Source: Amycolatopsis solani (lineage in GTDB: Bacteria > Actinomycetota > Actinomycetes > Mycobacteriales > Pseudonocardiaceae). From it: a stretch of DNA of 64,000 nt. The DNA is taken from positions 2,542,001 to 2,606,000 of the forward strand of contig NZ_JAWQJT010000001.1 in assembly GCF_033441515.1 (NCBI RefSeq), written 5' to 3'. The notes below the pieces were generated by a model. The model searched no databases. It was not told where the DNA came from and worked only from the letters and a program-made list of their open reading frames with translations. This document shows, piece by piece, positions 8,026 to 26,695 of this stretch. The translations under genes and the position numbers were made by a program. Every line of letters starts with the position of its first letter. Position 1 is the stretch's first letter.

Positions 8026-9318
8026 TTAGTGGACTGACGCTACCTTAATACCCGCGTACGCCTTTGTGGCCAGCGTGATTCGCAATCTCCGCAGGTTATC
8101 CAGCTCCGCTTGCAATCGGGCCCGCAAGTTGTCGAGCGTCGCTAAACACGTTTCTATTTCTTTGACGATTTCCGCCTGGGCCTCACGTGGAGGCACTGGA
8201 ACAGGTAGTTGTCTCAAGAGTTTCATGCTGATAGAGGCAAGGCGAGTGTTCTGTTTGCCTCGCGACTCGAACCAGCTGCGGGCGTACGTGTTTCCGTACC
8301 AGGAGAGAAGTCGAGGGTCTAGGATTTCGTCTTTGACTCGCACTCGGAAGACATGATTCTGGTGAATGCAGTTCTCGATCTGCCCTTCCCAAATCCATCC
8401 TCGGCCTAGCTTGTCGCGGTCTCCTCCTTCATTCATAAGCACGTCGCCGGGCTGCAAGGTAAGTTGAGCGGCCCTCTCGGCTGAGACCCTAATACGCGCT
8501 ACATCGGTCAGGTTCAACTTATTGCGTTGAACGTTCGCTACGCGCAGGTACGGGTATTCTGGGATCTCCGGGTCGGACTGCTTCTTACTGTCCTTGGTGA
8601 CTCCCGAGACGACGTCTGCAATCTCATCCAAAGCGTGCCACTCCCATCCGATCGGGAGTGGAGATTCGTCCTGAGCGCTGGACTCGTGTGGCAGAAGGGT
8701 GTCACTGGGTGGGCCGAAGAGTGCGTCGTAGATCATCGCATCCACGGCGTTATTGTGGCTCGATACCACTTGCCGTAGGTTGTCCTCAATGCGATTGGCC
8801 AATTCTTCAGCCTTTTCCATCAGGTCGGCGATGCGCTGCTGCTCGTCAACTGGTGGAAGCGGAACGTGCCACTGGGCCAACCGCGCAGCGCCGATGTGGT
8901 GGATGCCCACGCCTCTGGCGTGCTCGACGAAGGCGCCCCGCCGTGCTTCGTGCCGAAGGAAGTGCAAGAGATATCGCGGATCGATGCCGTGACTGCGAAC
9001 ACGGATCAGGGTATTTTGGAAGCAGCAATCGGCGATTTCGCCGGTCCACATAGCTGGTTTGCCGACTTCGGCAGCGCTGCCCGAGGCTTCGCCCACGAGG
9101 ATGTCGCCGGGTCGAAGCCGAAAGGTTTCGGCTTCGGTCTCGGTGAAGTTCATGGTGTTCACATCATCGAGGGCTAGGCCACGCCAGGTGACGTTCGCTG
9201 CACGCAGATACGGGCGCATGTTGTCGCCGGTCCGGTTCTTCGGCGACAGTTGCCGCCCTAGACGCACCTCGGCGACGTTTTTCAAAGGTACGGTGGTCCA
9301 GGTGGTCCCGGCGGTCAC
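8026..9318 (-). CDS. hsdS: Type I restriction enzyme specificity subunit
   Basis: 430 residues with two target-recognition domains separated by helical spacers. The first half starts with WTTVPLKNVAEVRLGRQLSP and closes with WHVPLPPVDEQQRIADLMEK. The second starts with GWEWHALDEIADVVSGVTKD and closes with RQLPVPVPPREAQAEIVKEI. It directs methylation and cleavage to a bipartite site by bridging two HsdM subunits. Its GTG start overlaps the hsdM stop by 4 bases. The two domains differ strongly, so the target should be asymmetric. Base composition is lower in GC than the flanking chromosome, in keeping with mobile DNA. Confidence 0.95.
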   Translation of the reverse strand: MTAGTTWTTVPLKNVAEVRLGRQLSPKNRTGDNMRPYLRAANVTWRGLALDDVNTMNFTETEAETFRLRPGDILVGEASGSAAEVGKPAMWTGEIADCCFQNTLIRVRSHGIDPRYLLHFLRHEARRGAFVEHARGVGIHHIGAARLAQWHVPLPPVDEQQRIADLMEKAEELANRIEDNLRQVVSSHNNAVDAMIYDALFGPPSDTLLPHESSAQDESPLPIGWEWHALDEIADVVSGVTKDSKKQSDPEIPEYPYLRVANVQRNKLNLTDVARIRVSAERAAQLTLQPGDVLMNEGGDRDKLGRGWIWEGQIENCIHQNHVFRVRVKDEILDPRLLSWYGNTYARSWFESRGKQNTRLASISMKLLRQLPVPVPPREAQAEIVKEIETCLATLDNLRARLQAELDNLRRLRITLATKAYAGIKVASVH

Positions 9319-10751
9319 TGGCGCACTTCCCCGTCGACGATCGCGCGGAGGGCTTCGAGGTCGTTCATCGCCTGCTGCAGGCTCTTGGTCATATCTTCGA
9401 TGACGCTGATCGGATCAGCGTCCGTCACATCCTCTTCGCTGCCGTTCGAGACGGACCAAGGGAAGTGGAGACTGTCATCCTGCCTGGCGATGTCCTCGCG
9501 GCTGAACCGCCGGAAGCGTCCCCGGGGACCCTGGTCGGTGCGAGGCGATTTCCCGTAGGGATCGTCGCCGAACTCGCGTTCGAAGTCGGCGAAGAATGCG
9601 CGGGAGAGCACATTGCGCCGACCGAAGGAAGGCACTCCCGAACGGAGGTCGTAGATCCACGTCTGCTGGGTGTTTCCAGTGTCGTCGTGGCCTCGGTAAA
9701 GGAAAAGCACGTTGGCTTTCACGCTCTGGGCGTAAAAGAGGCCCTCAGGCAGCCGCAGGATGGTGTGGACGTTGCACTTGTCGAGGAGGTCCGTCCTGAT
9801 CGGACGGGCTTGGGCATCGTACAGGACGTTGTCGGGAAGTACGACAGCGGCTCGACCGCCGGGTCGGAGCGTACGGTAGATGTGCTGAACGTAGGCAAAC
9901 TGCTTGTTTGAGGTGCGATGGGTGAAGTCTTCGCGATCGGTTCCGCCACCGGTCTTGGTGCCAAACGGCGGGTTGGTCAGGATGACGTCGGCTGACGGAA
10001 GGCGCGCACCGTCAGAAGTGAGGGTGTTGCCGAGTCGGAGGTCGCCGGTGAAGCCATGCAGGAGGGCGTTCATCACTGCGAGGCGATGGGTGTCGGGAAC
10101 GAGCTCCATGCCGACATATGCGTTGTGTAGCTGAGTATTCTGCTTCTCGGTGCTTAGATCGTACAGGTCGTTGGTTTTTTCACAGATATATCGGTGTGTT
10201 GCGACAAGAAAGCCGGCTGTGCCGAGGGCGGGGTCTTGGACTACTTCACCGGGTTGCGGTTTGACCAACGCGATCATCGAGTCGATGAGGGGGCGAGGGG
10301 TGAAGTACTGCCCAGCGCCTCGCTTAGACTCGGTCGAGTTCTTCTCCAGCAGCCCTTCGTACAGATCACCAAGTCCCTCGGTGCGCGCATCAAACCAGTC
10401 CAGGGCATCGATGTCGGTGACGAGCTTGGTGAGAACCCGTGGGTGCCTGATCGACGTGCTCGCGTTGCCGTAGACCACTCGCACCTGCCGGCTGGGGGCC
10501 TTCCCGCCCAGGCGGATGAGCATCTCGCGATAAAAATCGTACTGCTCGACGCCTTTTTTCTCGTCAAGGTCCTGCCAGCGATAGCCTTCCGGCAGAAGCT
10601 TTTCCTCTTCGCCGGTCTCGGCCGCCATCTTGAGGAAAAGCAGGTAGGTCAGCTCAGTCACGTACTGTTGGTACGTGACTCCATCATCGCGAAGGTCATT
10701 GCACAGGGTCCAGAGCTTCGCCACGATGTCTGCAGTACGGGTCATTGTCAT
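9315..10751 (-). CDS. hsdM: Type I restriction-modification DNA methyltransferase subunit
   Basis: 478 residues. An N-terminal HsdM helical domain (ADIVAKLWTLCNDLRDDGVT) precedes the N6-adenine methylase. SAM motif I reads DPALGTAGF near residue 200, with Leu-Gly where Ala-Cys-Gly is common, and catalytic motif IV is NPPFGTK near 262. It methylates adenine at the HsdS-defined site and protects host DNA. It starts at ATG 10751, overlapping the hsdR stop by 4 bases (ATGA), so the order is hsdR-hsdM-hsdS with tight coupling. Confidence 0.96.
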   Translation of the reverse strand: MTMTRTADIVAKLWTLCNDLRDDGVTYQQYVTELTYLLFLKMAAETGEEEKLLPEGYRWQDLDEKKGVEQYDFYREMLIRLGGKAPSRQVRVVYGNASTSIRHPRVLTKLVTDIDALDWFDARTEGLGDLYEGLLEKNSTESKRGAGQYFTPRPLIDSMIALVKPQPGEVVQDPALGTAGFLVATHRYICEKTNDLYDLSTEKQNTQLHNAYVGMELVPDTHRLAVMNALLHGFTGDLRLGNTLTSDGARLPSADVILTNPPFGTKTGGGTDREDFTHRTSNKQFAYVQHIYRTLRPGGRAAVVLPDNVLYDAQARPIRTDLLDKCNVHTILRLPEGLFYAQSVKANVLFLYRGHDDTGNTQQTWIYDLRSGVPSFGRRNVLSRAFFADFEREFGDDPYGKSPRTDQGPRGRFRRFSREDIARQDDSLHFPWSVSNGSEEDVTDADPISVIEDMTKSLQQAMNDLEALRAIVDGEVRQ

Positions 10752-13700
10752 CTTTCGCTCACGCCGGTGTCGGCCCAGACCTGTTCGGTTAGATGGTTTA
10801 GCACCTGATTAAGCTGGCCGTCAAATGCACGATCGAGTCGTGTGAAGCCACCAAATTCCTGACGGAACTGTCCGTCGTCGAGTAGTTGTCGGTCGAGGTA
10901 TCCTTGGGCCTTCAAGGCGGCTGCGATCTTCTTCAGCAAGTTCCGTCGCATCGTCGTCCAACGTACGACTTCGCTGGATAGCACTGCGTCGGTTGCCGCG
11001 TCGACACGGTGCTCGAAAGGCACCAGAGGAAGGCCTCGGCCGAAGTGGAGGACGTAGCCGATCATCTTTGCGCCGAAGTCGCGGTTGGTGACCTCGCGTA
11101 CGGCGGTGCGAAGGTTCGCCTCGGTGAAACCGCGCGTTTCCAGCGCCGTAAGCAACTCGCTCAATTGCTTCCGAGACAACTCACTCGGCGTCCTCAAAGC
11201 GATGTCAAGCGACGGGACATCGCTCAGGTCCTGTAGTAGGCGTCGGAACGACTGGAGATATTCGGCCGGCTGGATCGAGTTCCCGTAGTCGCGGCGGGAC
11301 GCGATGACCTCGTCTTGCCGCTCGTCGATCACCGCTTGGCGGGATGTAAGGACTACTCCGCGCTCGACGAGGACAGCCAGTTCAGGGATCCGGGTGAAGG
11401 CGGAGACGAGCTGCTCGAAGTCACCGGCCCGGATGACTTCGTCGATGAAGTCAGCGGGCGAACGCGCCGTGAGCCGTGCGAACGCCTCGGCTGCTTCGGC
11501 GGTCAACCTCGGGAGCCGCCGCTGCAACCGAGCCGCAAGCTGTTCGGCGATTACTTGGACATGCTCGGGACGATCGGCGTCGATCAGTTCGGCGGTCAAC
11601 TGCTCGGCCGTGATGCTGATGTTTGCGATGACCGGCTGCATCGACGTCAGTGGTTTCAAGGCCGCGTAGAGTCCGACCGCGTCGTAGATGCGGAACGTCT
11701 CCTTCCCGATTTCGGGACACGGCCGCGTCGCCCGGCCGAGCATCTGCTCGAAAAGGATCCTGCTGCGTACCCGGCGGATGAAGACCAGCTTGTCGACCTT
11801 TGGGATGTCGACCCCTGTCGTGAGCAGGTCTACGGTCACGGCGACCTGCGGAGTCCGTTCGTTGCGGAATCGCCGGATCAGACGTTGTGGCCGGTCCGAC
11901 CTGCTAGTGATCTTCATGACCAGTTCGCCGTCGATCTCTCCCCAGAGATCCTCGAGCGCACGGTTAAGAGAGTCGACGACTAGGTCGGCATGCGCGTCGT
12001 TCACGCAGAAGATGATGGTTTTGCCATCTTCGCCGGGAGTGATTTCTTGGGCGAGTTCCCGGCAAACAGCGTCGTTGAAGCCGGGTGTGATCACCCGACG
12101 GTTGAAGTCGTCGACCTCGAAGTTCAGCTCGTCCTGGAGTTGGTGCAGCTCGACTTGGCCGGTCTCGAGGTCGAGGATGTTCGCTTCTGTACCGCGGTCG
12201 AGGTGAATGCCGAAGGTGTTGAGCTGCGTCGCGATTTGGGTGGGCGGTTCGTGGTCGATGAGGTAGCCCTCGATCACGGCCCGCCGATAGGGGTAGGTGT
12301 AGATCGGGTCGCCGAAGATGGCGACGGTGTGCGCGGCAGGTGTCGCCGTTAGGCCGATCTTCACGGCGTCGAAGTGATCGAGTACGCGGCGGTACTCGCT
12401 CTGATACTCGGCCTCAGAGCGGAACTCGAGCTCGCCCGGAGTCATGGCCCTGTCCAGCGAGTAGCCGCGGTGGCACTCGTCGACGACGATGCAATCGTAC
12501 AGGTCGGGATCGAGACGGGCCTGGCCGGAGTCGTGGTCAGCGAGTCGGTGCACCATCGACTGCACGGTCGCGATGTGTAGTCGGGTCTCGGCGTCGATCT
12601 GTGGTTTGTCGATGGTCGCGACGTCGTAAATCTGAGCTAGCGTATTGACGCTGTGGACGATCTCGCTCTTGAACTTCCCCTCCGCCTGTTCGCCCAAGGC
12701 CAGACGGTCCACTAGGAACAAGATGCGGTTGAACCGCTCGTTTCGGAGCATGCGCTCGACGAAGCCCAGGCAGGTAACCGTCTTGCCGGTGCCAGTTGCC
12801 ATCGCGACCAGCATTGCCCGGATGCCGTCGACGATGTGCTTCTCCACCTCTGCAATCGCCTCGCGTTGGTACTCGCGAAGCCGAGGGGCGAAGCTGGAGT
12901 CGTTGCGGAGTGCCTCGTCGGCGTTGCTACGGTCGAGGGCCATTGACTGCCAGAGCGTGGTGGGAGAAGGCCACTCGCGGCGGGGCCGGGGCAAATTGGT
13001 GGGTCGGCGGACGTCCTGGAACCACAGGCCGGAAGCAGTTCTCAGCTGCTCCAAATACGGCCGTCCGTTCGTGGCGAACAGGAACGGCACCTTGAAGTCG
13101 CCCCACGGCCCCCTAGCCACTGACTGCGGCTCGAGGTTGCTCAGATCCCGACTGTAACGCCTAGCCTGTCCGAGGTCACCGGACACGTCTCGCGACTCAG
13201 CCTTGGCTTCGACCGCGCCGACGGGGGTGAGCCCACAGAACAGAATGTAGTCCGCCGGCCCCGAGGACGTCGGCCACTCCGCGATGGCCATGTTCTTCCC
13301 GGCGACCGGTCGAGCACCGAGGCCATGACGCAGCCTCTCCGAGTCGACTTCCCACCCCGCAGCGCGGAGCTGCTCGTCGATCACGGCCCTGGTCTGGGCC
13401 TCGCTTAGCCGCACCCGGCCAGACGCGCGGATCGCCCGCTGAACTACATCGTTCCGCTCGGCGGCGGTCAGCCCCTCCCGCGCCACCTCAAGATCGGCAA
13501 GCCTGGCGTTGTACTCCTCCTGGGCCCGGCTGAGAGCTTGCTCGGTCTCCAGAGCCAGGTCAAACGCGACCTGGAGATCATCGCGGGTCTGAATGACCAT
13601 GGCTTCGGCCTGCTGGCGGGCTTCGGCTTCGGAGTGTGCCTGGTCGGTGGCCGCCTGTGATGCAGACCAGGCACGGACGAGATCGTCTCGGAGTTTTTCG

Positions 13701-14203
13701 AGGTCGCGCCTTAGGTCGGCGACCTCGTCGGACGTGAAGTCCGCCGGTCGAGCTGGAGGAATGAACGACTCGGGTCGTGCGGACGACGGCTGCCCCAGAG
13801 TCTGGTGGAACCATACCCCGAGTTGGAAGCAGCCGTGGAGACATGTCAGCGCCTCACGCTGATCATCCAAGTGGCGGTGGACCGCCCGATTGCCTGATCG
13901 GCGGATGCGCTCGAACAGGTGGTAGACGTCGCCGGGGAGCAGTTGCCTCTGGTATAGGGTCTCGATCAGAGTAGCGAGGTCGGTTCGCGGGTTGATCTGG
14001 TGACCGCTCTCCACAGCGAGACATTGGACCAGGACTTCCGCGAACTGTCGCATCTTGTACAGGGCGACGTTCGGATCGGTGAACACGTGGAGTTCGGCGC
14101 CGGCGCCGTACCGCACAAGGAGCGGCTCCAGCGGCAGCATGTAGCCGAAGTTGGCCGACGCCGCTGCGAGCCGTTGAACCAGGTCCGACTGATCGTTCGC
14201 CAC
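10748..14203 (-). CDS. hsdR: Type I restriction enzyme endonuclease/translocase subunit
   Basis: 1,151 residues. The N-terminus resembles the DUF4145 helical domain (FGYMLPLEPLLVRYG to about 140). A nuclease core with PVGAVEAKAES follows, then an SF2 translocase with Walker A ATGTGKT and DECHRG, and a C-terminal EcoEI-type helical region. The GTG at 14203 is preceded by AGGAGGGGG at suitable spacing; the open frame upstream to 14254 runs through that ribosome site and is rejected. It cuts unmodified DNA after translocation and is first in the hsdRMS unit. Genes upstream on the same strand are also defence genes and may share transcripts. Confidence 0.95.
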   Translation of the reverse strand: MANDQSDLVQRLAAASANFGYMLPLEPLLVRYGAGAELHVFTDPNVALYKMRQFAEVLVQCLAVESGHQINPRTDLATLIETLYQRQLLPGDVYHLFERIRRSGNRAVHRHLDDQREALTCLHGCFQLGVWFHQTLGQPSSARPESFIPPARPADFTSDEVADLRRDLEKLRDDLVRAWSASQAATDQAHSEAEARQQAEAMVIQTRDDLQVAFDLALETEQALSRAQEEYNARLADLEVAREGLTAAERNDVVQRAIRASGRVRLSEAQTRAVIDEQLRAAGWEVDSERLRHGLGARPVAGKNMAIAEWPTSSGPADYILFCGLTPVGAVEAKAESRDVSGDLGQARRYSRDLSNLEPQSVARGPWGDFKVPFLFATNGRPYLEQLRTASGLWFQDVRRPTNLPRPRREWPSPTTLWQSMALDRSNADEALRNDSSFAPRLREYQREAIAEVEKHIVDGIRAMLVAMATGTGKTVTCLGFVERMLRNERFNRILFLVDRLALGEQAEGKFKSEIVHSVNTLAQIYDVATIDKPQIDAETRLHIATVQSMVHRLADHDSGQARLDPDLYDCIVVDECHRGYSLDRAMTPGELEFRSEAEYQSEYRRVLDHFDAVKIGLTATPAAHTVAIFGDPIYTYPYRRAVIEGYLIDHEPPTQIATQLNTFGIHLDRGTEANILDLETGQVELHQLQDELNFEVDDFNRRVITPGFNDAVCRELAQEITPGEDGKTIIFCVNDAHADLVVDSLNRALEDLWGEIDGELVMKITSRSDRPQRLIRRFRNERTPQVAVTVDLLTTGVDIPKVDKLVFIRRVRSRILFEQMLGRATRPCPEIGKETFRIYDAVGLYAALKPLTSMQPVIANISITAEQLTAELIDADRPEHVQVIAEQLAARLQRRLPRLTAEAAEAFARLTARSPADFIDEVIRAGDFEQLVSAFTRIPELAVLVERGVVLTSRQAVIDERQDEVIASRRDYGNSIQPAEYLQSFRRLLQDLSDVPSLDIALRTPSELSRKQLSELLTALETRGFTEANLRTAVREVTNRDFGAKMIGYVLHFGRGLPLVPFEHRVDAATDAVLSSEVVRWTTMRRNLLKKIAAALKAQGYLDRQLLDDGQFRQEFGGFTRLDRAFDGQLNQVLNHLTEQVWADTGVSER

Positions 14204-14341
14204 TCGATGCCCCCTCCTAGGTTCTTGCCCTCGACTCAAGATAGTCGGAAGCACCTACAGTCAAGGACACGGAGGTAAGAGAGACCAAGTCCCCCTGCTA
14301 CTAATAGCAACTACACAGTGACTCTTCGTACGACTGTCTCG

Positions 14342-15743: not shown

Positions 15744-17879
15744 TTACGAATCCGCATCCTTGGTCGTTTCTCGCTCTCGTGACCATTCCTCTGTAATGAT
15801 TCGCTGCCAAAGTCGTTCCGCTATCTCAACGAGAGAACCCTCGCCTGGTACGTACCACTGTTTCGGTCCTTGGACGGCACTCCATGCCTCTCTCCAGTCC
15901 GCCTTGCGCCAGATCTGCGTGACAAGCCCACTTGGTGAATAACGCTGACCATCCGCTTCCCATAAGAGTGGCCTGCGTCGATCATCTACCCAGGTTGCGA
16001 AGGAGCGACCTTGACCATTTCTCAACCAAATTCCAATAGCCTGCTCTTCAGTTGGGCTCGGCTGATATTCAAGGCGAGTTCCTGCGGGGATGAGATTGTG
16101 GTCGATAATCAGGGAGACGGTGCTGGGACGTCGACGGGGTTTCGGGATATCTGACTGGAAGGTGGTCAGATCGCGCACGTTAGTGCCTTCAGCGAGCGCC
16201 TGCAGTACACCGGTCACCAATTGCTGACACCGCTGTTCGTTGGCGAAGGTGCTGGTAACATAGCTGCCTTCACCAAAAAAATGGTCCATCAGCGGTATCA
16301 ACTGTGCCAGTACCCCCTCTACGAGAGCCGGCACCTCATTCAAGCCTGATTCCCACTCCGAGTCTATCTCCTCGATGCCATCGGTTCCCACAAGTTGGAA
16401 TACTATGTGGGCGATGAGTAATGCACCGCTCTCGGCAATCGAGGCCGAGCGCCCAGAAAGTGTTGAGCGCACGTCATGAAGAGCGTCCCGTACTGCACGC
16501 ATCAGTAGCACGGTACGCCAGATCTGGCACGCGTTCGGTTGTTTGCCGAATAGCCTTGTGTACGCCCCGCCGGGGCCTTCCTCCCAGAGTGCCTCTGTGG
16601 ATCCATTAACTCTCACGGCTAATATTGGATCTGGATATGCGCAGGCCAGGGCGGTTGCGGCTTCGCGCACTGAGCAGCCAGATGCAGGGGCTGGGTCGAT
16701 TTCACCACGCTTAAAAACGTACTCTTTGTCGAGAGTGAGCCGAAAGTCCTCTCGGATCAAACTCTGCGTTTCATCGATAGCGATGAAGTCGCGTCGTTCC
16801 ATGTGATTTTGAGTGTTGGTGGCCTTGGTAATCTCCTTGGCGAACCCTTCGGGCGTGCCATTGACCGATATAATTCGTACAGTAACGAAGGCTTCGCCTA
16901 GTGCATCTGGGGTGCGTTCGTACGCGCGGTAGGCTGATGTTACGGTTTGAGCCCCGTTCACGACGCTCGCGTTGTGTAGGGTCAATCGCACAGGCTTGCT
17001 TGGGCCGCGCTGAGCAAAGAATTCCTGTTCAATGGTATTGCACTGGACGGTAATCCCATTGTGTCGATACCAGAACCCTTGTGGATCGTCGGTCAAGCTT
17101 TCGACTAGAGTCTGGTTGACGCCGGTTAGCCCCAACGATCGGCGCACGTTACGATCGTAAAGCCGTTCGCCGTGGTCGGCGTACCAGTTCGCTAACTCTT
17201 CCACGCACACGAGTCCGTCAAAAGCTTGATAGGGGGTCTCTCGCGAATGCCAACCTTCCGACATTGTGGCGACGATCGTTATTGGCTCGGGAGCTAGGTC
17301 TTCGCGAACCGCACGATGAAAAGCTGCTTGGTTTAGTACTCGGTGTTCGACCGTGCGTCCCCAGCCGCCGAAATCGATTGCTGCTTCCTTTAGGATCGCC
17401 TCGGTCTCCTCGGAGAGTCGTCCTTCGCCGACGACGGCTACAATAAGGAAGACCTTGCATGTCGGCAGACCTAAGACTCCGCGGACTCTGTCGGCGAGTG
17501 ACTGAAGGCGTACGTTGAACTGGTCGAAATCGCGGTTATCAAGTTTCTTAAGGCCGTGTATTAATTTATGCGCTGCAGCTGTATTGAAGCCTGCTTGCCC
17601 GCGGTCGCTCCATTTTGCTTGAATCAGCCAAAGTTCGGATCCCGATGCGGAGAAGGCGACAGCGTCAATGCCGAAATCGTCGCGTCCGTCAATAACGCCA
17701 GCTGCGGCCTCGTCGGATGAGCAATCTGTAAGTATGCGGGCGGCTCTGGCAGCTAGTGCGCGCGACAGAAATGCGTTATCGAAATCAGTGCCGGCGCGGC
17801 CCTCGTAATCTGCCATTGAAATTCGCGATGTGAACTCGCGCCTCAATGCATCGCGGATGTGCTGAACCTCTAAGGGCAT
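15744..17879 (-). CDS. AIPR-family abortive-infection protein with RAMA-like C-terminus
   Basis: 711 residues from ATG 17879 (in-frame upstream starts at 17948 and 18011 are possible). The N-terminus has a nuclease-like core with DFGIDAVAF near residues 68-76 and LIQAKW at 85-90. The central part is the AIPR region (ANWYADHGERLYDRNVRRSL; GFWYRHNGITVQC; VVNGAQTVTS; ITKATNTQN). Residues from about 585 on (LIPAGTRLEYQPS; GQRYSPSGLVTQIWRKADW; AWSAVQG) resemble a RAMA domain, a fold proposed to sense modified DNA. AIPR proteins are linked to phage resistance. With the nuclease gene downstream it forms a probable two-gene, modification-aware defence module. Confidence 0.75.
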   Translation of the reverse strand: MPLEVQHIRDALRREFTSRISMADYEGRAGTDFDNAFLSRALAARAARILTDCSSDEAAAGVIDGRDDFGIDAVAFSASGSELWLIQAKWSDRGQAGFNTAAAHKLIHGLKKLDNRDFDQFNVRLQSLADRVRGVLGLPTCKVFLIVAVVGEGRLSEETEAILKEAAIDFGGWGRTVEHRVLNQAAFHRAVREDLAPEPITIVATMSEGWHSRETPYQAFDGLVCVEELANWYADHGERLYDRNVRRSLGLTGVNQTLVESLTDDPQGFWYRHNGITVQCNTIEQEFFAQRGPSKPVRLTLHNASVVNGAQTVTSAYRAYERTPDALGEAFVTVRIISVNGTPEGFAKEITKATNTQNHMERRDFIAIDETQSLIREDFRLTLDKEYVFKRGEIDPAPASGCSVREAATALACAYPDPILAVRVNGSTEALWEEGPGGAYTRLFGKQPNACQIWRTVLLMRAVRDALHDVRSTLSGRSASIAESGALLIAHIVFQLVGTDGIEEIDSEWESGLNEVPALVEGVLAQLIPLMDHFFGEGSYVTSTFANEQRCQQLVTGVLQALAEGTNVRDLTTFQSDIPKPRRRPSTVSLIIDHNLIPAGTRLEYQPSPTEEQAIGIWLRNGQGRSFATWVDDRRRPLLWEADGQRYSPSGLVTQIWRKADWREAWSAVQGPKQWYVPGEGSLVEIAERLWQRIITEEWSRERETTKDADS

Positions 17880-18146
17880 CTCTCGGCCGCGTCGACTGCC
17901 GCCACTAACGTCCACTGCTGCCTCGTCCCCTGTCTGCCCGCTTCGCATGATTGGCCCAGCGTACGGATCGTCGTGATCCGAGCAACTGTTACGGCTGTGC
18001 GCGGAGCCCACCTGCCGGCCTTCTCCCCGGCGCGCTTGCTACGAAGATGGGCGAGGGGGCAGTCCACCAGAGTTGCGCAGTCAGGGCGCGGAGGTTCACG
18101 CCGTAGAGGCCACTCCGGCCGCTACGGCGATCGCGCCCTTGTCGAG

Positions 18147-19268: not shown

Positions 19269-20408
19269 GTGGCCCGCAAAGTCCTGGTGAAACAGTCGAA
19301 CGGTGAGCCTTTCACCTTGAGTGAGACTCCCGCTCCCGACGAGCACCATCTGCAGGAGGTGCTGAAACATCATCCTGAACTGCTGCCCCTTGATGACCTG
19401 GGACTCAGCGGCCCGTTGCTGATCGTGGGCCGAGAAACCCGGCTTGCGTCTGGCAGCGTCGACCTGGTCGGGCTCACATCGTCGGGGGAGGTCGTATTGG
19501 TCGAGTTCAAGACAGGGCCACAGAACCCCGACTTCCGTGCGGCGCTGGCCCAGCTCGTCGACTACGGCTCTGACCTGTGGGGTATGACCGTCGCCGACTT
19601 CGACAACGGGGTCGTCCAGCGCTATCTCACCAGCCAGCACTATCCAGTAGTCGATCATGGCAGTCGAACGCTGCAAGAGTTCGTAGCCCGAACTTGGTCG
19701 GGTGATGAATGCGACTGGGACGGGCTCGTTGACCGGCTGGCCGCTGTGCTGTCACTGGGGGACTTCCACTTTGTCGTGGCAGCACAACGGTTCACGCCAC
19801 AGATGACCACTAGTCTGGACTACCTCAACACTGTCGCGCAGGTCGGCCGCTACCACTTGGTGCAGATGGTGCAGCTGACCGGAGCCGAGGTCACCGCCTA
19901 CTCAGCGCAGTTGGTGGCTGGGCCGGCACAACGCGGCCGCAGCACCTCCGTGTCCAAGGTCAACGAGGCCGAGTTCCTCGCAGCCATCGACGATGACACG
20001 TACCGGGACGCGCTGGTAGATCTTCTTGCCGCTTGCCGCGCTCTGGATCTGACCTTGGCGTGGGGCGCGAGAGGCACGTCTATCAGGATGGTCACACCTG
20101 ACCGACCCGAGCCGATATCTGTGGGATGGCTGCTACCTGATGGATACCACTGGCAAGGGCTCAAGTACGTGAGCCTCGGATATGACACGAGTACGGCGAC
20201 GCAGACTCCCTCGGTCTTCGACGCGCTGGAGTCATATACAGCTGAGTTGGCGCGCATTCCAGGCGGCGAGCCGGCGAAGGCCAAATCGCTCAAGGCGTGG
20301 ACCCGGAAGCCCGGCTCGGTCCCTGCCGCGATGCCGGCGATTGTCGAGGTTCTGGAGTCCCTGGTGCAACACGCCTCAGGTGAACCTGGGGACTCATCTG
20401 GCGAGTGA
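19269..20408 (+). CDS. NucS/DUF91-like PD-(D/E)XK nuclease
   Basis: 379 residues from GTG 19269. The nuclease core is near the N-terminus: GRETRLASGSVDLVGL with Asp65, then VVLVEFKTG with Glu79 and Lys81, then a conserved QLVDYGSDLW about 15 residues on. This order (arginine-rich lead, VDLV, ExK, Q-Y helix) is that of NucS and DUF91-type endonucleases. The remaining 270 residues contain no domain I can name. It stands alone inside the defence island, with unannotatable DNA on both sides. A solitary defence nuclease or a repair-type endonuclease would both fit. Confidence 0.65.
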   Translation: MARKVLVKQSNGEPFTLSETPAPDEHHLQEVLKHHPELLPLDDLGLSGPLLIVGRETRLASGSVDLVGLTSSGEVVLVEFKTGPQNPDFRAALAQLVDYGSDLWGMTVADFDNGVVQRYLTSQHYPVVDHGSRTLQEFVARTWSGDECDWDGLVDRLAAVLSLGDFHFVVAAQRFTPQMTTSLDYLNTVAQVGRYHLVQMVQLTGAEVTAYSAQLVAGPAQRGRSTSVSKVNEAEFLAAIDDDTYRDALVDLLAACRALDLTLAWGARGTSIRMVTPDRPEPISVGWLLPDGYHWQGLKYVSLGYDTSTATQTPSVFDALESYTAELARIPGGEPAKAKSLKAWTRKPGSVPAAMPAIVEVLESLVQHASGEPGDSSGE

Positions 20409-21197: not shown

Positions 21198-21234
21198 CGG
21201 GCCGGGCGGAACCAGGACACTCAGGGGAGTGAAG

Positions 21235-23328
21235 ATGACGGAAACTCGCGCCGCGGACGTCGCCGATCGGCTTTGGCGAGCGTATGCGCCCTTCCGGCGG
21301 GGCCGGGACTCGGCTGGCGATCTGGCTTCGATGTTCGCCCTGCTGGTCCTCGCCCGGTTCGTCGAGTCGAGGCGGGATTCGGCAGACGACTTCGTCAAGC
21401 AGTGGAAGCGGGCAGTCGCCGAGGCGGAGACCCGGATCTCGCCGGTGATGGGGCTGCGTGCGGCCCTGTCGAGCGCCGCCCGGCAGCCCGGCTTCCCGCT
21501 GCCGGATGTGCGCGCGTTTGAGTTCATGAACCGTTACGAACAGCCGGACGACGTGCCGTGGACAGCCGCTTTTCTCCTCGCGCTGGTGCAGCGGCCGACC
21601 CCGGCGGAGGTGGGGGCGGCGGACGTCGCCGCGCTGCTGCTCGATCGTCACCTCCAGGAGAGCACCGTCACCGCGGGCGAGTTCCCGGTGCCGCCCGCGG
21701 TAGCGCGCGTGCTGGTCGGCTTGACGGCTCCCGGGCCCGGAGATCGCGTTCTGGATCCGGCCTGCGGGTCCGGTGGTCTGCTCGCCGCCGCGGTGGCGCA
21801 GATCGCGGAGCACAGCCGCGTCGACGGAGCTTTCCTCGAGGCGTACACGACCGATCACGCCAATGCGGACCTGGCGATGGCGAACTTGGCCGTCCACGGC
21901 GTCGATCGGCCCGTCGTCCGCGGCTCGGACCTGGTATCGCTGTTCAACCGCCACGACACGCCCGAGGTCGACGTGGTGATCAGCAACCCGCCGTTCAACC
22001 GGCGCATCGAGAACGTCGAAAAGATCGACCCTGCGCACTTGCGCTTCGGCACGCCACCGGCGTCCAATGCGAACTTCGCCTGGCTCCAGTTCGCGGTGAA
22101 CCGGTTGAGCCCAGGTGGCATCGCCGCGATGATCATGCCGCCGGCCGCCGCCTGGTCCGGCGGTGGCGAAGCGGACATCAGGCGGAAGATGATCGAGGAA
22201 GACGGTGGGGTGGTGCTCGCTGTCATCGCCTTACCGCCGAACCTCTTCGCGCACACCGCCGTCCCCGTGCACGTCTGGGTGCTCGCCCGCGACAAGGCAC
22301 ACCACTTGCCACCCGGCGGGACGGACTCCGTCCTCTTCGTCGACGCCGGTCGGCTGGGCAGGCAGGCGCCGCGCCGGCCACGCATCCTGACTGCGGACGA
22401 CGTGGAGCGCATCGCCGTCCGGCTGCGGGAGTGGCTGAGGTCCCCCGGCACGGATTCCGACGAGGCGGGTTTTTCTCGCTCGGTGAAGCACGAGGAGATC
22501 CTCGAGAACGACGGAAGTCTCGACCCCAGGCTGTATGTCAACGTCGAGCGAGAACGACCGGCAGCGGCACCGGACCTCACCCGCGCACTCGAAAAGCTCG
22601 ACCACCACGTGAAAGAAACGGCGTCCTCGAGCGCAGAGCTGGCGGAAAGCTTGGCCAGGTACGAACGGCTGACCCGCAACGAGACCACCCTTTCACGCCC
22701 GACGCTCGGCGCCATCGCGGCGGATCTGCTTGTCGCCGGCCCTTCCGGCAGCCACATCCGCGCCGAGGACTACCTGGACGCGCCGGGCGTTCCCGTGGTC
22801 ATGCCCAAGGATCTGACGGACGATGGATTCGACGCCACGGGAATCCGGCAGATCACCGAAGACCACGCCCGCGGGCTGGACCGCTTCCGCCTCCGCCGAG
22901 GCGACGTCGTGCTGGCACGCCGTGGCGAGCTGGGCCGTTGCGCGGTGGTTCGTGAGGAGCAGGACGGCTGGGTGTGCGGTACGGGCTGTTTCGTCCTCCG
23001 GCCCACCGACGGACTGGACGCCGACTACTTCGCGGCCTATCTGCGGGGTGCGGAGGCGCGCGACTGGCTCAGCGCCCATTCGACCGGGAGTACGGGGATG
23101 AAGACGATCTCGCTCGCCGCGTTGCGCAAACTGCCGGTGCCGCTCCCTGACCTCGGGACGCAGCAAGCGATCGCCGCCATGATGGCCCGGCTGGATCACC
23201 ACAAGCGGCTGCTGCGCGAGCAGCTCGACCTGACGCAAGCGATCCGCCGCGATGCGCTGAACTGGCGCCCGGCGTGCCCACCGGATGAGGCGGATCCCCT
23301 GGCTCACCGGCCGGTTCCGGCCACGTGA
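21235..23328 (+). CDS. N6-adenine DNA methylase fused to a type I specificity domain
   Basis: 697 residues from ATG 21235 (AGGGGAG upstream). An N-terminal helical domain of HsdM type precedes SAM motif I DPACGSGG (about 174-181) and catalytic NPPF (251-254). From about residue 480 a single target-recognition domain follows ([40 protein letters not shown]), ending with the usual coiled segment ([20 protein letters not shown]). One-chain HsdM-S proteins usually work as a homodimer on a palindromic bipartite site. No restriction subunit lies nearby, so it is an orphan methylase or the modification half of a system using a nearby nuclease. Confidence 0.85.
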
Positions 23329-23449: not shown

Positions 23450-24042
23450 GGTACGGCCAGTTGCTGGCCGGTCTTCAGCAGGTCGTCGAGCAGTGCGGCG
23501 GCCGCCGCCCGTCATTCGGGGTAGGCCGGCCGCGCCCTCGTACTGATCGGCTGCTGATCGACGTAGTCCAGGCTGGCAGGGTCGGGTTCCCGATCGGAGA
23601 GGCTGTCTTCGAGGACGCTCACGGTCCCCGGGTTTCGACGACGTCCGCGTGCCAGGGACGGGCGGTGTGGAGTTAGCTGCCCTGCTGTGCTGGCACGGCT
23701 TCTTGCAGAGACGATCCGAACGTCATTCCGGACGCGTCGCGGAAGAACGCGGCGGGACCAGCACCGACCTGCCGCCGCACAGAGCTACTGTGGTGGATAT
23801 TCGCAGGTCGTGAGGGATGGCAGTCCGTGTGGATGTTGTCCGAGCCTGGTCGGGGGCACCAAACACGCTGGTCAGAGGCTTGATGTGGCCGCGATGTCGA
23901 TCAATCTCCTCGCCTCGCGCCTCCCGTGGCGAAGCGGTGTCCCGCCGTGGTGGTCTGCAAGACAATGACTCGAGTGTGAAACATTCAGTCCGGCTCAGCG
24001 ATATTGAACAGCACTGAGATCGCTGAGGTCGGAGGCACATCG
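23450..24042. other. Intergenic region before the coiled-coil/GIY-YIG module
   Basis: About 590 bases with no gene I can support. Short coding-looking scraps in several frames suggest decayed genes, including the P450 remnant at its left edge. The last 100 bases become less GC-rich and should carry the promoter of the next gene. Confidence 0.45.
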
Positions 24043-25311
24043 ATGGGGCGTCGCCGAGGGTTCTTCGCCGAAATGCAGTACCAGGCTGCCAAGGCGCAGA
24101 AGGAGCGAGCGCGTCAAGCGGCCACCGCCGAGCGCGAGCGTGTACGGCTGGAGAAAGAGATGCACCGCGCTGTCGCGGCTGCGGCCGCGGCGCGGGAGCG
24201 GATGGCGCGCGCTGACGCGCAGGCGGCTGTCCAGGCGGAACGTGAGGCCAAGCGTCTCCACGTCGAGGCCCAGCAAATGCGAGTCGAGTCGCTCAACGCG
24301 GACTTGCGGGAAGAACTGGCGGCCATCGACGGGGTACTCGAGTCGACGTTGGCTGTCGACGACTACGTCGACCTGGAGAAGCTGCGTCGCGTCGCTCAGC
24401 ACCCGCCCTTCGAATCGGCCTACTTGGTGCCGGTGCCCCCGCCTGTGCCGATCGTGGCTCCGCCCGAGCCGATCTTCCGGCCGCCGGCGCCTCCTGCCGG
24501 ACTTTCGGCGGTCTTCGCCAAGAAGAAACACGCGGTGGCCGTGGCAGTCGCGAAGGGCCAGTTCGAGCAGGCTCATGCCACGTGGCGGGCGTTCGTCGCG
24601 CAGATTCCCCAGCAGCAACGGATCGCAGCCGAGCAGCACCAAGCTGCCGAGGGCGAGCGGTTGCGGCGATTGGCCGGTGACCGAAAGCGCTACGACGCGG
24701 AGTGCGATGAACGCCAGCGGGTGGTCGACGACGAGAACCGGCGGCTCGACGATCTGATCAACCGGCTTGCCGCGAGCGAAGCCGAGGCAGTCGAGGAATA
24801 CGTCGGGATCGTTTTCGGCAACTCGATCTACCCGGAAGTGGTCGCCGCCAACAGCGACATCGAGTTCTCCTTCAGTCCGGAGTTCCGCGAGCTGTCGATC
24901 ACTCTCGTCTTCCCGCCGCCCGAGGCCATCCCGACGACCAAGTCCTTCCGATACGTGCGCGCGAGCGACGAGATCGCGGAAACCAAGCTGGCGCAGCGGG
25001 AATCCACGGTCAGGTACGCCGATCTGATCAACAACATGACGTTGCGAACCGTCCACGAGGTCTGGGAATCGGACCGCGGCGGCAAGATCGACAGCATTTC
25101 GCTGGTCGGCGGGGTGAACCACGTCGATCCCGCCGTGGGCAAGGACGTGTTCGTCCGGCTGATCGCCTTGGCGGTCGACCGTGCGGACTTCCTGGAGATC
25201 GACCTGTCGCGGATCACACCGTCAGAGACGTTGAAACACCTTCGTGCTGTGGTGTCCAAAGCGCCCCATCGCTTGACGCCGATCGACGACAAGAAGGGTG
25301 TTCGGGGATGA
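24043..25311 (+). CDS. Coiled-coil protein resembling the N-terminal half of Mrr-type restriction proteins
   Basis: 422 residues from ATG 24043 (GGAGG 7 bases upstream). It begins MGRRRGFFAEMQYQAAKAQ and runs into about 80 residues of charged coiled coil. A proline-rich linker (residues 130-165) and a second coil follow. The C-terminal domain has FRYVRASDEIAET, NNMTLRTVHEVWESDRGGKI and SLVGGVNHVDPA. From memory of the family, this layout precedes an Mrr nuclease domain in longer actinomycete restriction proteins. Here the chain ends where that nuclease would begin. The next gene, 25 bases on, encodes a different nuclease, so the pair probably forms one system. Confidence 0.65.
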   Translation: MGRRRGFFAEMQYQAAKAQKERARQAATAERERVRLEKEMHRAVAAAAAARERMARADAQAAVQAEREAKRLHVEAQQMRVESLNADLREELAAIDGVLESTLAVDDYVDLEKLRRVAQHPPFESAYLVPVPPPVPIVAPPEPIFRPPAPPAGLSAVFAKKKHAVAVAVAKGQFEQAHATWRAFVAQIPQQQRIAAEQHQAAEGERLRRLAGDRKRYDAECDERQRVVDDENRRLDDLINRLAASEAEAVEEYVGIVFGNSIYPEVVAANSDIEFSFSPEFRELSITLVFPPPEAIPTTKSFRYVRASDEIAETKLAQRESTVRYADLINNMTLRTVHEVWESDRGGKIDSISLVGGVNHVDPAVGKDVFVRLIALAVDRADFLEIDLSRITPSETLKHLRAVVSKAPHRLTPIDDKKGVRG

Positions 25312-25336
25312 CATCCGCCGACGAGGGGAGCGCTCG

Positions 25337-26695
25337 GTGAACGGGCTCCGATTCGCTCCGCCGCCGGGGTGGCCGCCCCCGGAGCCGGGCTGGGTACCGC
25401 CGCCGGGCTGGCAGCCGCACCCGTCCTGGCCGCCCGCACCGCCGGGCTGGCAATTCTGGGTTGCCGAAGTGCCGGCACGCCAAGAGGAGCCGGAGACTTC
25501 GGGCTCTTCCTGGGAGGAGCTCGCGCCCGTAACGGGAACACTCGCGCCAGATCGCCACGACGCACAGTTCGACATCGACGAGCAAGACGAACTTCGAGCC
25601 TCGGTCGAGCAGGAGCTGCAGGCCCTTCGCGAGCAAGTCGACCAGGCGAGGAGTGAGCTTGTCGAACTCGATGATGCGGCCTTGCTGCAACAGGTCGGCA
25701 TCTACGAGTACCACCACCCGCTCGAGAACGCTGTGCAGTACAAGGAAGCGCTGACCACGATCCGCCAGCAGGTGAAGGACTTCGTCAAGAACGGCACCGC
25801 CATCCTTGCGGCCGAACGGTTCGCGTACAACAACTCTCTGGCGCAAGGGCGGAAGATGACCGCCGACTTCTCGAAGTTGATGCTCCGGGCGTACAACGCC
25901 GAGGCCGACAACTGCGTGCGGTCGGTGCGCGCCGGCACGGTGGCTTCGGCGAAGCAGCGTCTCGAGAGATCGGTCGAATCCATCGCGAAGCTCGGAAAAA
26001 TGATGGAAATGCGCGTTTCGCAGGAGTACCACGAGCTTCGCCTGCGTGAGATAGAGCTGACTGGGGACTACCAGTTCAAGCTGCAGGAGGAACGCGAAGC
26101 AGCCCGTGCCGAGCGCGAGCTTCTGCGTGAGGAGAAACGCGCTGAAGCGGAACTGCAGGCCGAACGCGAGCGCTTGGAGAAAGAACGCGACCACTACACC
26201 AATGCACTGGCGAGACTCTCGGAGCAAGGCAAGCACGACGAGGCCGGCGAGCTGCGTGAACGGCTGTCCGCCATCGAGTCGGCGATCACGCAGAACGACT
26301 ACCGCATCGCCAACATCCGGGCCGGCTACGTGTACGTCATCAGCAACATCGGTGCTTTCGGCGAGAACGTGGTGAAGATCGGGATGACCCGGCGCCGCGA
26401 GCCCAAGGACCGCATCCTCGAACTGGGCGACGCGTCGGTGCCGTTCCCCTTCGACACCCACCTGTTGTACTTCTCGAAGGATGCTGTCGCGCTCGAGAAC
26501 GAGCTGCACACGATGTTCGCCGACCGGCGGCTGAACCGGGTGAACCTGCGTCGCGAGTTCTTCTTCATCACGCCACAGGAAGTCCGCGCGGCACTGGCCG
26601 AGAAGCTGGGCAACGTACTCGAGTTCAACGACAACCCCGAAGCTTCGCAGTACTTCCAAAGCCGCTCGACGTGGCCTGAGTCCAGTCGGCGATAG
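25337..26695 (+). CDS. DUF4041 protein with T5orf172-type GIY-YIG nuclease domain
   Basis: 452 residues from GTG 25337 (GAGGGGAG 6 bases upstream). The N-terminus is a proline/tryptophan-rich motif (PPPGWPPPEPGWVPPPGW) seen in assorted actinomycete proteins. The DUF4041 helical region with LLQQVGIYEYHHPLENAVQY follows, then a long coiled coil. A C-terminal T5orf172 domain of the GIY-YIG superfamily has GYVYVISNIG, VVKIGMTRRR and ALENELHTMF. GIY-YIG enzymes cut DNA with one metal ion; DUF4041/T5orf172 proteins are common in phages and defence loci. Co-transcribed with the coiled-coil partner and convergent with the P450 gene 16 bases away. Confidence 0.8.
   Translation: MNGLRFAPPPGWPPPEPGWVPPPGWQPHPSWPPAPPGWQFWVAEVPARQEEPETSGSSWEELAPVTGTLAPDRHDAQFDIDEQDELRASVEQELQALREQVDQARSELVELDDAALLQQVGIYEYHHPLENAVQYKEALTTIRQQVKDFVKNGTAILAAERFAYNNSLAQGRKMTADFSKLMLRAYNAEADNCVRSVRAGTVASAKQRLERSVESIAKLGKMMEMRVSQEYHELRLREIELTGDYQFKLQEEREAARAERELLREEKRAEAELQAERERLEKERDHYTNALARLSEQGKHDEAGELRERLSAIESAITQNDYRIANIRAGYVYVISNIGAFGENVVKIGMTRRREPKDRILELGDASVPFPFDTHLLYFSKDAVALENELHTMFADRRLNRVNLRREFFFITPQEVRAALAEKLGNVLEFNDNPEASQYFQSRSTWPESSRR

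Follow-up and report, generated by a model that had tools for sequence, protein, structure and literature searches.

What is a Mrr-type protein without its nuclease doing directly in front of a complete nuclease gene of another family? This question is raised by two genes, here called A and B, which lie on the forward strand at positions 24043 to 26695 of a 64,000-nucleotide stretch of the Amycolatopsis solani genome (assembly GCF_033441515.1, contig NZ_JAWQJT010000001.1, positions 2,542,001 to 2,606,000). The whole stretch is referred to as the window; the genome carrying it comprises 10.28 Mb in four contigs. That A and B are one functional unit is strongly supported by the comparisons reported here. 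We propose, with a probability of roughly 0.62, that the pair represents the anti-phage nuclease SNIPE split over two genes: B would be the nuclease and A a detached N-terminal adaptor, the two assembling to cut incoming phage DNA.

SNIPE (PD-lambda-1) is a single-gene anti-phage nuclease (PMC13190303; PMC9519451), which received the name SNIPE in 2026 (PMC13190303). It is a membrane nuclease that cleaves phage DNA while this is being injected, and it separates self from non-self by place, waiting at the site of phage DNA entry. Removal of the membrane anchor leads it to cleave host DNA, and the anchorless protein is toxic in E. coli. In the E. coli protein, DNA binding is promoted by the DUF4041 domain, a probable binding site for phage tape-measure proteins as well. 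The N-terminal region is the most variable part among homologues and was proposed to act as an adapter: the N-termini named are transmembrane (TM), DivIVA, type III ATPase, tail-needle, PH and DUF4428, with one N-terminal TM segment in 59% of homologues, two in 7% and none predicted in 34% (all PMC13190303). The word Mrr is absent from the main text of that paper (PMC13190303). We found no description of an A-B pair in the literature searched, subscription papers, preprints and supplementary tables lying outside the scope of the search.

Gene A is a Mrr-type scaffold that ends ahead of the nuclease

The features of gene A are the following:

24031..24035, + strand: likely ribosome-binding site of gene A, GGAGG (sequence inspection)
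24043..25311, + strand: gene A, Mrr-type scaffold without nuclease, 422 amino acids (aa), ATG start (open reading frame (ORF), profile, AlphaFold2)
24043..24075, + strand: N-terminal motif MGRRRGFFAEM (motif pattern scan)
24514..24531, + strand: FG-basic motif FAKKKH (F158-H163), at the start of the second coiled coil, after a Pro-rich loop
24781..25287, + strand: C-terminal alpha/beta domain, residues 247-415, common to Mrr-type proteins

The A protein gave no family match in Pfam, NCBIfam or PHROG. In PADLOC it matched the profile mREase_IV PDLC03663 (E 1.2e-27). The match covers positions 13-381 of the 544 in this profile, and its C-terminal part thus has no counterpart in A. Profile-profile comparison (hhalign) with 53 other scaffold matches from the genome survey described below gave a probability of 100% (E 3e-62) and ran through residue 415 of 422, C-terminal domain included. 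In one example, L011, residue 415 of A corresponds to residue 405 and Mrr_cat occupies residues 434-545; A therefore stops about 20-29 residues ahead of the expected start of the nuclease. No Pfam match to Mrr_cat was found in A, and it is because this domain is missing that the gene is not filed as a Mrr restriction enzyme. The preliminary description of the locus, made from the sequence, had placed the end of A at the point where Mrr-type proteins carry their nuclease, and had made similarity to these proteins a requirement of its reading; the alignments bear out both.

The AlphaFold2 model of A consists of two long helices and the C-terminal alpha/beta domain, with a mean predicted local distance difference test score (pLDDT) of 89; fold searches returned no confident structural relative. 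Both ends of the A proteins are distinctive. Of the 34 A rows, 31 have the motif [KR]GF[FWL]A[EQ], and [KR]GF[FWL]A occurs within the first 200 residues of none of the 52 Mrr-side rows; at the other end, A proteins finish in a GVRG-like tail. A is homologous to the N-terminal scaffold of Mrr-type proteins (PADLOC mREase_IV PDLC03663) through residue 415 of 422, but differs from them in lacking Mrr_cat, in its RRGFFAE-like start and GVRG-like tail, and in being tied to B.

Mrr_cat is present in 49 of the 53 other scaffold matches and TerD in 15; L029, which was checked singly, carries Mrr_cat and TerD within one protein. Scaffold-Mrr_cat-TerD fusions were noticed at L026, L029, L031, L036, L037, L043, L048-L052, L055, L057, L059 and L060, the ids other than L029 being assigned from tail length and ending. 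Mrr_cat was missing from four matches (L064, L034, L040 and L056). L064 was rejected as a scaffold relative: it is a histidine kinase whose coil matched by chance. The other three, L034 (G071), L040 (G088) and L056 (G306), have little sequence beyond the match (28, 17 and 0 residues, respectively), fall on the Mrr side of the A tree and have no B match beside them. The tail of the L056 protein is somewhat A-like (LRG).

Gene B is a SNIPE homologue with a Trp/Pro-rich start

The features of gene B are the following:

25323..25330, + strand: likely ribosome-binding site of gene B, GAGGGGAG (sequence inspection)
25337..26695, + strand: gene B, SNIPE / PD-lambda-1 homologue, 452 aa from GTG 25337 (465 aa from 25298)
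25337..25471, + strand: PPGW module, Trp/Pro-rich, B residues 1-45 (homologue starts, alignment, model)
25874..26041, + strand: DUF4041 (PF13250) match (Pfam)
26324..26596, + strand: GIY-YIG nuclease domain (T5orf172 / MUG113) (Pfam)
26495-26497, + strand: codon of the likely catalytic Glu387

Gene B probably starts at GTG 25337 rather than at 25298, since GAGGGGAG precedes this GTG, the database copy P0123 has 452 aa and many homologues begin at the PPGW module. With this start, the 465-aa version is probably 13 residues too long, and A and B are separated by a gap of 25 bp instead of overlapping by 14 bp.

The B protein matched the PADLOC profile PD-Lambda-1 (E 1.5e-108) and, in Pfam, DUF4041 (PF13250, E 9.2e-22), MUG113 and T5orf172, in agreement with its earlier description as a T5orf172 GIY-YIG nuclease with DUF4041, which had made no connection to SNIPE. 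Residues Y333, K347-G349, R359, E387 and N403 of the nuclease are invariant in 33/33 A-linked B rows; they were chosen as what we take to be the catalytic residues of the GIY-YIG family. We further assume that E387 is the equivalent of SNIPE E414, the SNIPE sequence being outside the alignment. No GIY-YIG entry was among the matches listed in a fold search with the B model.

B shares with SNIPE the order DUF4041, then C-terminal GIY-YIG. It differs in that the window system consists of two genes, with a separate Mrr-type scaffold, in that the N-terminus of B is the PPGW module, and in that no TM-like stretch was found in B (maximum 19-residue Kyte-Doolittle mean 1.0). A TM segment is not strictly defining, as the 34% of SNIPE homologues with none predicted show (PMC13190303). 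Without a strongly hydrophobic stretch, the placing or restraining of B must come from elsewhere. The PPGW module has Trp and Pro at regular spacing, the Trp being invariant in 44 aligned sequences that were picked for the module, and residues 1-40 of B are predicted to be ordered (block pLDDT 76-85).

B accompanies A at every A locus found

Linkage was surveyed in 394 Actinomycetes genomes, with up to four candidates scored per genome. The search with A gave 62 matches in 56 genomes (for L012, whose match contains a stop, only the open frame was used). Defining an A gene as a match that reaches A residue 421-422 and stops within five residues, we obtained nine A genes, one in each of nine genomes. 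B adjoins A in eight of these. At the ninth locus (G088), the next reading frame opens with the PPGW module, followed by a B that is cut short. DUF4041 is present in 29 of the 394 genomes, and the association of A with B is significant at the genome level (Fisher p = 2.7e-9, genomes treated as independent). The other scaffold proteins, counted in the same way, had B in 3 of 47 genomes (Fisher p = 1).

A broader search of a contig database found B directly downstream of A and on the same strand at 25/25 A loci, ranging from Pseudonocardiaceae to Acidimicrobiales, Conexibacter and Gemmatimonadota. L136 comes from the same genome as G237, and L116 from the same genome as L136; this genome was counted once, which gives 33 distinct A loci. 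At 32 of them B adjoins A on the same strand, and at one B is cut short. All A loci found thus show a link to B. When starts are assigned by a simple rule, 30 of the 32 other rows have -4 to 66 bp between the two genes, the exceptions being L144, where the start is uncertain, and L149, where A is broken. At the latter locus (Amycolatopsis jejuensis), which is one of the 32, A is broken up over several frames and the B homology ends early, so that judging from the sequence the two genes look damaged together.

The preliminary description had also asked whether the genes stand apart in most genomes. This does not hold for A. It does hold for B, which has no A beside it in 21 of the 29 DUF4041 genomes, and this weighs against a two-gene reading. 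The upstream flank was short at two of the solitary B loci (about 1.3 kb at L101 and 1.7 kb at L106); a genome-wide search, with four candidates scored per genome, found no A in either genome. A being linked to B at all loci found and B often standing alone, the dependence is one-way.

Predicted fusions and matching trees

With a joined A-B query, at least four predicted fusion proteins were found among the 120 matches listed: P0243 (893 aa), P0244 (830 aa), P0245 (835 aa) and P0246 (828 aa). P0244, P0245 and P0246 are 53-73% identical to each other and hence cannot go back to one sequencing error. In these three, A is joined via a linker to DUF4041-GIY-YIG without the PPGW module. In P0243 the end of A runs directly into the PPGW module; this protein is alone on a 3.1-kb contig and may result from an error of gene calling or assembly. 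The fusions place A N-terminal to DUF4041, at the site of the variable N-terminal region of SNIPE.

The A tree was built from 34 A rows and 52 Mrr-side rows, L064 being left out, as a quick tree without bootstrap. The A rows make up one side of a branch against the Mrr-side rows, with 98 in the Shimodaira-Hasegawa-like approximate likelihood-ratio test (SH-aLRT), in a tree that carries a long-branch warning and whose root is unplaced. The nearest named relatives of the window's gene A are from Amycolatopsis. A B tree of the same quick kind, from which L114 (broken B) and L115 (cut-short B) were left out, is likewise split by one branch (SH-aLRT 97) into 33 A-linked and 20 solitary B rows. Distances between A proteins follow those between their B partners (Mantel r = 0.83 for 31 pairs, L149 and the duplicate L116 left out; 0/5000 permutations were as high). 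The linkage, the predicted fusions, the split between A and the Mrr side and the matching trees together support the initial suggestion of a two-component system with the nuclease acting in trans.

Solitary B proteins and the FG-basic segment

The solitary actinomycete SNIPE homologues have the same nuclease core as B, but no adjacent A. All 20 that were scanned, having been picked for DUF4041, also have T5orf172. Their N-termini are varied: DUF2510 in 7/20, TerD in 1/20, a TM-like stretch in two (L104 and L107) and PPGW in several. The DUF4041-GIY-YIG protein at L097:4375-6336 (G064) has a TerD-looking N-terminus, assigned by eye; with the TerD fusions of Mrr-type scaffolds, this puts TerD on both the Mrr and the SNIPE sides.

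A further difference lies in the N-terminal coil, which in 15 of the 20 solitary proteins opens with an FG-basic segment like 'LFGARxKAREL' (hidden Markov model (HMM), E < 1e-3; nine of the 15 are its seeds). The same HMM found the segment in 0/33 A-linked B rows. A similar motif was seen by eye in four (L153, L154, L155 and L158) of six further solitary B proteins outside the class. In the A family the second coil begins with a motif resembling 'LSALFGKKKHA'. Comparison of the A and solitary B profiles aligned the two FG-basic motifs in register with a probability of 46.6, a value that coiled-coil composition may inflate; the control, A against A-linked B, gave 2.8. The segment HMM did not find A (best E 2.9). 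On the B tree the contrast between A-linked and solitary proteins is one event, and thus a single correlation and not 20 independent ones. These sequence motifs hint weakly that A may supply in trans what solitary B proteins have in cis.

Adaptor, restrainer or modification-dependent enzyme

In the split SNIPE that we propose, B would be the effector, with DUF4041 followed by the GIY-YIG nuclease, and A the detached N-terminal adaptor, composed of a long coiled-coil scaffold and the C-terminal alpha/beta domain shared with Mrr-type proteins, without their nuclease. A and B would assemble into a complex. A would keep B off the chromosome and fix its position, probably at the envelope, the point of entry of phage DNA; A would also help to recognise the infecting phage by sensing injection, and B would cleave the entering DNA. 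The envelope location and the cutting of incoming DNA are suggested by analogy with the family to which B belongs.

Alternatively, A could mainly restrain B in the manner of an antitoxin, keeping a soluble, potentially self-cutting nuclease inactive until infection, with no role in targeting. The toxicity of SNIPE that has lost its TM segment (PMC13190303), the lack of such a segment in B and the position of A upstream of B at all A loci found fit this explanation. We nevertheless regard it as unlikely, because B-type proteins with neither A nor an obvious TM segment are common, because the predicted fusions keep A attached to B, as better fits an adaptor than a labile antitoxin, and because the Mrr-type proteins to which A is homologous over nearly all its length have their own nuclease in cis.

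Somewhat more doubtful still is a two-part type IV restriction enzyme, in which A would recognise modified or otherwise marked DNA and B would cut it. The closest relatives of A do carry Mrr_cat, and PADLOC labels the family type IV methyl-directed. This label, however, rests on annotation; profile and fold searches found no confident DNA-recognition domain in A, and B already has DUF4041, which is reported to promote DNA binding in SNIPE (PMC13190303). Chance neighbourhood in a defence island, or decay of a Mrr gene as the three nuclease-less Mrr-side proteins without a nearby B match might suggest, is very improbable and already contradicted by 33 distinct linked loci in two phyla, by the supported branch that sets A apart, by the conserved N- and C-terminal motifs and by the fusions.

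If the pair is a split SNIPE, it suggests that placing and cutting in SNIPE can be divided between two genes, and that an actinomycete family classed under type IV restriction enzymes shares the placing part; the two families were apparently unconnected before. With the adaptor on its own gene, the adaptor idea for SNIPE becomes directly testable. A possible reason is also offered for the large, unexplained N-terminal scaffold of actinomycete Mrr-type proteins. As a tentative extension, the A scaffold might be a general sensor of phage entry with exchangeable nucleases, either Mrr_cat in cis, sometimes with TerD, or GIY-YIG in trans or fused. Many proteins of actinomycetes that bear the label type IV methyl-directed restriction would then be SNIPE-like injection-site nucleases, not modification-dependent ones.

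Genomic context

The pair closes a defence island in the window, sitting at its edge. The neighbouring features are the following:

8026-14254: type I R, M, S gene set (defence island)
15744-18011: AIPR/AbiU-like gene (defence island)
19269-20408: PDC-S11-like gene (defence island)
21229-23328: fused N6-methyltransferase and Methylase_S (specificity) gene (defence island)
23701-23781, - strand: tRNA-Gly gene, after the island and before gene A

Beside the fused methyltransferase-specificity gene, no restriction subunit was noticed. The 3' end of the tRNA-Gly gene points toward the island and is a possible integration site.

No third gene recurred beside the pair: at 21 loci, no family of PADLOC (E 1e-10) or of Pfam (E 1e-6) occurred in more than 2 of 107 flanking ORFs, which had been chosen by length and GC content at third codon positions (GC3) and may include spurious ones (L149 was outside this set, as were L147, L148 and L150 through its size cap). 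With no recurrent flanking family, the pair looks like a self-contained cassette. The families listed by these scans (25 of 70 and 25 of 106) are mostly ordinary, with a few defence matches. At L118:9440-10918, on the opposite strand beside an A-B pair, an ORF encodes an otherwise unidentified protein with two PPGW-like repeats.
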